Assembly (NCBI GenBank): GCA_009841165.1 | Contig: VXMI01000136.1 | Coordinates: 1 to 50,578 of the forward strand | Direction of reading: 5' to 3' | Source: Gemmatimonadota bacterium | Lineage (GTDB): Bacteria; Gemmatimonadota; Gemmatimonadetes; Longimicrobiales; Gaopeijiaceae | Length of the DNA stretch: 50,578 nucleotides | Shown here: positions 1 through 1,137 of the stretch, one piece after another | Numbering within the stretch: position 1 is the stretch's first letter | How the letters are laid out: each line of letters starts with the position of its first letter | Notes under the pieces: generated by a model | Databases searched by the model: none | What the model was told of the DNA's origin: nothing | Seen by the model: only the letters and a program-made list of their open reading frames with translations | Program-made: the position numbers and the translations under genes

Positions 1-49
1 GTCGTAACAAGGTAGCCGTAGGGGAACCTGCGGCTGGATCACCTCCTTT
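1..49 (+). rRNA. rrs: 16S rRNA, 3' end (partial)
   Basis: The first ~49 bases match the conserved 3' end of bacterial 16S rRNA: the 3' minor-domain stretch GTCGTAACAAGGTAGCCGTA at 1-20, the helix 45 region, then GGATCACCTCC at 36-46 with the anti-Shine-Dalgarno CCTCC at 42-46. The exact 3' end is set by comparison with E. coli. The rest of the gene lies upstream of the window. No tRNA, 23S or 5S gene follows; era begins 155 bases downstream. Confidence 0.97.
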
Positions 50-71
50 CTGGAGTTTCGAGTAAGGGAGG

Positions 72-85
72 CCCTCCACGGAGGG
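72..85 (+). other. Hairpin in the 16S 3' flank
   Basis: CCCTCC at 72-77 and GGAGGG at 80-85 are perfect inverted repeats, 23 bases after the mature 16S end; a usable loop needs the innermost pair open. No T-run follows, so it is not a convincing intrinsic terminator. It could be a processing or attenuation structure. No other structure is evident between 49 and 205. Confidence 0.35.
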
Positions 86-204
86 TCGCCCGGAAAGATT
101 CTCAATGTCTACCCGTCCGCTTCTCATGACTTCTCGATTGTTCCTCTACTTCCCAGGGACCGCCTCTGTTCGGACTGGACGCGGGTCGCGACTGAATTCC
201 CTCC

Positions 205-1137
205 ATGAACCCGGACCGGCCCGATCTTCAGCCTGGGGATGAGAACCCCACCCGCGCCGGGTTCGTCGTGCTGGTTGGGCTTCCGAACGTCGGCAAGTCG
301 ACGCTTCTCAATGCTCTGGTAGGAGAGCACCTGAGCATTGCCACACCCAAGGCGCAGACCACCTGGCAGCGAGTGGCGGGAATCCGGACGGAGGATTCCG
401 TCCAGATGATCTTCATCGACACGCCCGGGCTGATATCGAGCCGTCAACTCTTCCACCGGTCGATGGCAATCGAGACCGAGAGAGCCGTGGCGGAAGCCGA
501 TGTGGTCATCGGCCTGCTGGACGGCGGAGTACGGGCGTCGCGGGAGGAACTGGAGGGGTTTCACGATCTGCTCGCGCGCACGGCCCGTCCGGCCGCGCTC
601 GCCGTCAACAAGGCCGACCTGCAGCGATTCGACCCTGCTTCCGCTGGGCGTATCGCCCGAGACCTCAAGTTGCCGCTCTACATCGTTTCCGCCCGAACCG
701 GCTCGGGCCTCGAACCGCTGCTCGAGTTCGTCGCTTCGCAGCTGCCGGAAGGACCGTTCCTCTATCCCGCCGACCATCTCGCATCGGCACCGGCCAGGTT
801 TTTCGTGCAGGAACTCATTCGCGAGTCGGTATTCGAACGCTATCGCCAGGAGATTCCCTATGCAGTGGCGGTCCGGATAGAAGAGTTCCGCGAAGGAGAG
901 GATCCGGTCTACATCGCGGCATCCCTGCACGTGGAACGCAAGTCCCAGAAGGGAATGCTGATCGGGAAGGGGGGCACCGGAATCAAGTCTCTCGGGGCCG
1001 CAGCGCGGGCAAAGATCGAGCACTTTCTGGGACGACGCGTGTATCTTGATCTGTGGGTCAAGGTGTCGCACGGGTGGCGCCGCAGACGGAAGGGACTGGC
1101 GATGTTCGGCTATGTGGTACCGGATTCTGAGGCCTGA
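205..1137 (+). CDS. era: GTPase Era
   Basis: Era is a Ras-like GTPase that binds the 3' end of 16S rRNA and acts in 30S subunit maturation. The 310-residue protein has the G1 loop GLPNVGKST (25-33), G3 DTPG (72-75), G4 NKAD (135-138), G5 SAR (162-164) and a C-terminal KH domain with the GKGG loop (254-257). Length is normal for the family. The ATG at 205 has no good Shine-Dalgarno sequence, so the start is likely rather than certain, but it leaves a short leader before the G1 strand as expected. It is the first gene after the 16S 3' end, which carries the family's RNA target GATCACCTCC at 37-46. The downstream PorV-like frame overlaps its last codons. Confidence 0.96.
   Translation: MNPDRPDLQPGDENPTRAGFVVLVGLPNVGKSTLLNALVGEHLSIATPKAQTTWQRVAGIRTEDSVQMIFIDTPGLISSRQLFHRSMAIETERAVAEADVVIGLLDGGVRASREELEGFHDLLARTARPAALAVNKADLQRFDPASAGRIARDLKLPLYIVSARTGSGLEPLLEFVASQLPEGPFLYPADHLASAPARFFVQELIRESVFERYRQEIPYAVAVRIEEFREGEDPVYIAASLHVERKSQKGMLIGKGGTGIKSLGAAARAKIEHFLGRRVYLDLWVKVSHGWRRRRKGLAMFGYVVPDSEA

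Follow-up and report, generated by a model that had tools for sequence, protein, structure and literature searches.

Unlinked 16S and 23S rRNA genes occur in bacteria. The gene order described here may show one way in which the amount of an assembly factor is matched to that of its rRNA, a question that stands for most bacteria. Binding of the 3' end of 16S rRNA has been established for other Era proteins (PMC10582724), and in the rnc-era(-recO) operon of gamma-proteobacteria era is expressed jointly with another 16S maturation factor, while RNase III acts on the transcript. The era neighbours listed in the Figure 1 legend and the synteny section of the same review include no rRNA genes, and in the part of its text that was available "rRNA genes" and "Gemmatimonad" have no matches. 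For Gemmatimonadota, rRNA clusters of five isolates have been placed in a region of high strand bias (PMC11237797); the available part of that paper reports no link with era and has no whole-word match to the name. No publication on a unit of rRNA and era was found in a literature search that covers few subscription journals. Here, we describe a genus of Gemmatimonadota in which 16S RNA and its helper era are probably copied as one piece, judging from gene order and sequence. The 16S-era junction is a neighbourhood absent from the era neighbours named in those sections of the Era review (PMC10582724).

The stretch of DNA analysed, called the window below, has 50,578 nucleotides and is an entire contig (C210) of a draft genome in 239 contigs. 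Its features at the 16S end, all on the forward strand, are as follows.

1-49, + strand: 3' end of the 16S rRNA gene (RF00177 positions 1485-1533, 51.3 bits)
72-85, + strand: hairpin, part of the pre-16S trailer
112-142, + strand: 3' strand of the 16S processing stem, complementary to the 16S leaders of L033 and G194
143-204, + strand: spacer of 62 nt from the stem to era, with no terminator-like hairpin, TANNNT, or Shine-Dalgarno-like motif
205-1137, + strand: era, ribosome assembly GTPase with KH domain, 310 aa (NF000908, TIGR00436; MMR_HSR1, KH_2)
1172-9415, + strand: co-directional block 3' of era (PorV-family protein, unknown open reading frame, prfB, lysS, lolCE, lolD, mcsA, mcsB)

The contig start truncates the 16S gene at its 5' side, leaving 49 nt, and the remaining 16S, 23S, and 5S were not found elsewhere in the window's own assembly. 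A preliminary description had named era as the first gene after the 16S end, 155 nt on, had placed the target sequence of Era at 37-46, and had seen no clear promoter between the two genes. All of this is borne out. The 16S tail is recognised by RF00177, and the era product scores above two curated cut-offs (297 bits against 237 for NF000908 and 217 bits against 116 for TIGR00436), with a GTPase domain (MMR_HSR1) and a C-terminal KH_2 domain (residues 216-292, 64.2 bits). The gap is 155 nt (50-204), GATCACCTCC of the Era and anti-Shine-Dalgarno region is present at 37-46, and a hexamer scan of window 1-400 gave 0 promoters and 0 terminators. The order of the block behind era is kept in all 12 relatives examined, some of them with genes missing or more widely spread. 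From 205 to 30725, the identified genes (to 9415) and large + strand open reading frames (to about 30 kb) run in one direction, which fits the region of high strand bias reported for Gemmatimonadota in the available part of PMC11237797.

A search of a genome collection returned eight loci, seven of them in Gemmatimonadota, and in six (L031-L036) a 16S tail lies directly 5' of era; the named relatives are metagenome-assembled genomes of Gemmatimonadetes/Gemmatimonadota. Together with the window and G093 (L002), G249 (L082), G202 (L083), and G213 (L084), these give 11 readable junctions in the genus, of which L032 and L035 are assigned to it by similarity and the 16S tail of L034, below the Rfam cut-off length, was identified from its sequence. 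Adjacency and strand are conserved in all 11, with spacers of 107-203 nt. The pair is thus conserved in 10 relatives besides the window, one of which has an intact 16S: L033 carries a complete 16S (6313-7874) and then era (at 8001) within a contig of 305,877 bases. A twelfth genome, G083, shows the trailer alone before a run of N and was excluded from the 11. The 16S-era junction of the genus is more than chance or an accident of assembly. In L033 4099-5930, tRNA-Arg(tct) and tRNA-His(gtg) are found; they precede the 16S unit in G230 and G077.

The rRNA operon of the genus is split. The 16S of L033 is followed by era and is not adjacent to 23S, and on contig C20 of G230, where these three genes are all on the + strand, 5S (440-556) is far from 16S (242656-244217) and era (244344), so that 23S-5S is about 242 kb away. 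A 5S search in 23 genus genomes gave one 5S in 20 and none in three, and no 16S was found in the 1.6-1.8 kb before 23S-5S in G025, G067, and G088. The 1.6-1.8 kb read upstream of the genus 23S-5S units L147-L149 contain neither 16S nor tRNA genes.

The 16S leader of L033 has an element, GACAATCGAG-GTCATGAGAAGCGGGCGGG, that pairs over about 29 bp with the L033 trailer. This element is present in nine of nine genus leaders, with a single base changed in one, and complementarity of leader and trailer is found in all four genomes having both strands (duplex -50.8 to -57.0 kcal/mol), where the era ATG follows the duplex by 17-61 nt. The leader hardly varies within the genus, and covariation adds little beyond complementarity. 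The window's own 16S leader is absent from the contig, and its trailer, scored with the G194 leader, gave -50.8 kcal/mol against a mean of -28.0 and a minimum of -42.9 in 200 shuffles. Since a similar trailer follows 16S within whole operons (L057, L139), this is an old 16S processing trailer and was not made for era. Pre-16S needs the trailer strand for its usual processing by RNase III. Because the strand at 112-142 is needed for processing, RNA synthesis has to continue to about 142, leaving at most 62 nt to the ATG of era; in the genus, the ATG lies 17-62 nt after the 3' strand of the stem. In L033, L034, L035, L083, and L084, an in-frame ATG lies within the stem (CTTCTCATGAC), upstream of the assumed era start, and an Era with a longer N-terminus is possible in some relatives.

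A transcript end near the hairpin at 72-85 had been considered, and this idea is wrong: the hairpin sits inside the pre-16S trailer, upstream of the stem strand, and no T-run follows it. Its arms vary among relatives while pairing is mostly kept; in an alignment and consensus fold of 10 relatives, three of its six pairs have changes on both sides.

Among 96 genomes of the family, the Era search gave 68 matches at 1e-34 or better. Of these, 18 could not be judged (15 contigs end before any rRNA and three read N upstream). In the 68, 16S is directly before era in five, with G083 showing the trailer alone; 5S lies at most 964 nt upstream of era in 33 and at 1.4-6.8 kb in eight; no rRNA was found in the 4.9-12 kb read upstream in G054, G074, and G073. 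Therefore, 47 of the 50 judgeable family genomes have rRNA within 7 kb upstream of era, and 39 have it within 1 kb. For the phylum sample, the Era search covered 200 genomes (169 matches) and the 5S search 73 out-of-family genomes (61 matches), 17 of which had no 5S match or no listed era position and were left out. In the other 56, 5S precedes era on the same strand within 400 nt in 32 and at 401-1100 nt in six, the distance is 1.1-25 kb in six, and the two are unlinked in 12, including both f7 genomes and both genomes of f10, the sole family sampled from another class. A whole 16S-23S-5S operon before era was read in G195 and G131 (one contig each) and in G161 (four contigs). At L013, L023, and L139, in g34 and g6, insertions between 5S and era hold open reading frames of about 0.7-2 kb; to the eye, two of those in L139 look like a FkbM-type methyltransferase gene and an aminotransferase gene.

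Across the class, then, era usually stands behind a whole 16S-23S-5S operon and after a terminator-like hairpin (45 of 53 spacers). The old trait is era behind the rRNA operon, and direct contact of 16S with era is derived. On a tree of 69 Era proteins, the 16S-era label, which for G083 is based on the trailer, needs four changes, and well-supported branches force all four: the window's genus, G028, G033, and G010. The junctions of the last three are known from 60-219 nt of 16S at contig ends, and no 16S leaders were found for them. In g28 the layouts are mixed (G028 has 16S-era and G068 has 5S-era), and 23S-5S of G010 lies inside another contig, with no 16S match in the 3.6 kb upstream. A layout of 23S-5S-era lacking 16S was not seen among the six loci readable before 23S (G046, G019, G005, G195, G131, and G161). 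Since era is apart from or unlinked to rRNA in three of 50 family and 12 of 56 out-of-family genomes, coupling of rRNA and era is not obligatory in the phylum.

Signals before era were compared between these groups. With a scan for stems of at least six pairs (at least four G-C), loops of 3-14, and at least five T in nine, a terminator-like hairpin with T-run was found in 28 of 33 family 5S-era spacers (shuffle expectation 3.7) and in 17 of 20 others (expectation 2.0). These rows are not independent, as six of the 33 come from one genus, g12; the 33 omit the eight family genomes with 5S at 1.4-6.8 kb, and the 20 were drawn from the 32 out-of-family genomes with a gap of at most 400 nt. None of the 11 genus spacers has such a hairpin, which is unremarkable alone at an expectation of 1.2, and it occurs in two of the three other 16S-era spacers.

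The 16S leaders of the genus share TTGAC(A/G)-17 nt-TANNNT in nine of nine, a motif read from the alignment; a generic promoter scan of the L033 leader found 0 promoters, because its -10 hexamer matches at three of six positions only. TANNNT is absent from the entire 155-nt spacer of the window and from eight of 11 genus spacers. Outside the genus, the hexamer lies 5-8 nt before the era start in nine of 47 relatives, compared with 15 cases spread over the remaining 37 spacings in the count (four of 62 upstream sequences had no usable start and were skipped). Such positions, for example in L041, L056, L173, and L174, hint at leaderless era transcripts in Gemmatimonadota. In part of the phylum, then, era does seem to have a start of its own, which the genus seems largely to have lost, with L084 as an exception (TANNNT 6 nt before the ATG). 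The apparent loss fits reliance on read-through in the genus and is not proof of it. None of GGAGG, AGGAG, GAGG, and GGAG was found at the usual distance from the 11 genus era starts; this may limit translation of a very abundant RNA, or may reflect a leaderless past.

The reading that we favour, at a probability of roughly 0.6, is that the rRNA operon has split and that its 16S part now runs on into era, giving a single 16S-era transcript from which era mRNA would be freed by an RNase III cut. From an ancestral layout of 16S-23S-5S-terminator-era, 23S-5S and the terminator would have left in the genus, and the 16S promoter would now transcribe 16S, the processing trailer, and then era. RNase III would be expected to cut the duplex of the 16S leader with window 112-142, freeing pre-16S and leaving era mRNA with a 5' end newly formed about 60-90 nt upstream of the ATG, and the amount of Era would scale with that of 16S rRNA, to the tail of which the protein binds. 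We infer the read-through, the cut, and the proportional dosage; the layout, its conservation and derivation, the processing stem, and the window spacer with no recognisable terminator or promoter are read in the sequences themselves. Because mRNA at rRNA level would far exceed the need for Era, some damping step must exist. Co-transcription had been suggested in the preliminary description, whose observation is right and stronger than was stated. For the genus, its mechanism is plausible and has structural support: the pair is conserved, the window has no promoter or terminator between the genes, and the stem forces transcription to within 62 nt of era. The support has two limits: direct contact of 16S with era is derived, and elsewhere in the phylum the link is dispensable, with era unlinked in 12 of 56 genomes and TANNNT, suggestive of an own start, before it in nine of 47.

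A less probable alternative is that the order is a relic of synteny: era would have a start site to itself, possibly a leaderless one, would not be transcribed from the 16S promoter, and would keep its place in a slowly rearranging region. The conserved block behind era, the terminator-like hairpins and TANNNT hexamers of relatives (45 of 53 and nine of 47), and, in G218, a TTGACC-17-TAAGAT sequence that lies after the terminator and before era agree with this account, as does the lack of a Shine-Dalgarno-like motif in all 11 genus eras, which is expected of leaderless genes. However, the hexamer is near the era start in one of 11 genus members and is lacking in the window, and the distance from the hairpin to the start of era is 20-33 nt in g12 and several f5 genomes, too short for a full promoter to fit. 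Owing to this short distance, the terminators of relatives were not accepted outright as proof against coupling. The spacer after the stem is short, C-rich, and unstructured, and the 16S transcript might end there by Rho or an unseen signal, era then being expressed from a promoter inside 16S or by weak read-through only. We judge this improbable, because rRNA transcription is usually protected from Rho and 17-62 nt separate the stem from the ATG.

Most contigs break inside 16S, and the genus includes a chimeric 16S (G077), as would suit an assembly artefact at the conserved 16S end, but the same junction appears in several assemblies whose record names (VXQO, JAJD/JAJE, and JAPPGM) mark them as separate. 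An artefact has hardly any probability left, since it is refuted for practical purposes by L033, which spans an intact 16S, and by the match of the trailer with genus leaders. The G077 16S (L146 3489-5608) is 97-100% like L033 over the first 1,000 columns and 62-84% over the remainder, and is followed by a foreign spacer with tRNA-Ile and tRNA-Ala. We rejected the reading that it represents the genus with an ordinary 16S-tRNA-tRNA spacer and left it out of the junction counts; its leader aligns with that of G230 and was kept among the nine. Such a chimera would mislead a 16S survey.

A bolder extension of the single-transcript reading, which we hold as speculative, is that the 16S precursor would itself be the era mRNA precursor, with the maturation cut making the helper's message and a ratio of factor to substrate built in; when 16S and 23S parted, as the Era tree shows at four points, era would have stayed with 16S because coupling pays. 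Deletion of 23S-5S between two fixed neighbours would yield the same layout as selection. With era behind the rRNA operon across the class and directly behind 16S after the split, this is a testable case of rRNA processing creating an mRNA.

Compared with known unlinked rRNA genes of bacteria, the genus is alike in that 16S stands apart from 23S-5S, and differs in that its 16S unit runs on into a gene for a protein that acts on 16S. In the operons of other Gemmatimonadota, the rRNA genes are likewise followed at their 3' end by era and a similar block, but era is separated from 16S by 23S, 5S, and a terminator-like hairpin. The rRNA clusters described in the available part of PMC11237797 are similar in phylum and in the position of rRNA amid co-directional core genes. 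The rnc-era(-recO) operon (PMC10582724) has a nuclease gene as the partner of era, whereas in the genus described here the partner would be the rRNA itself.
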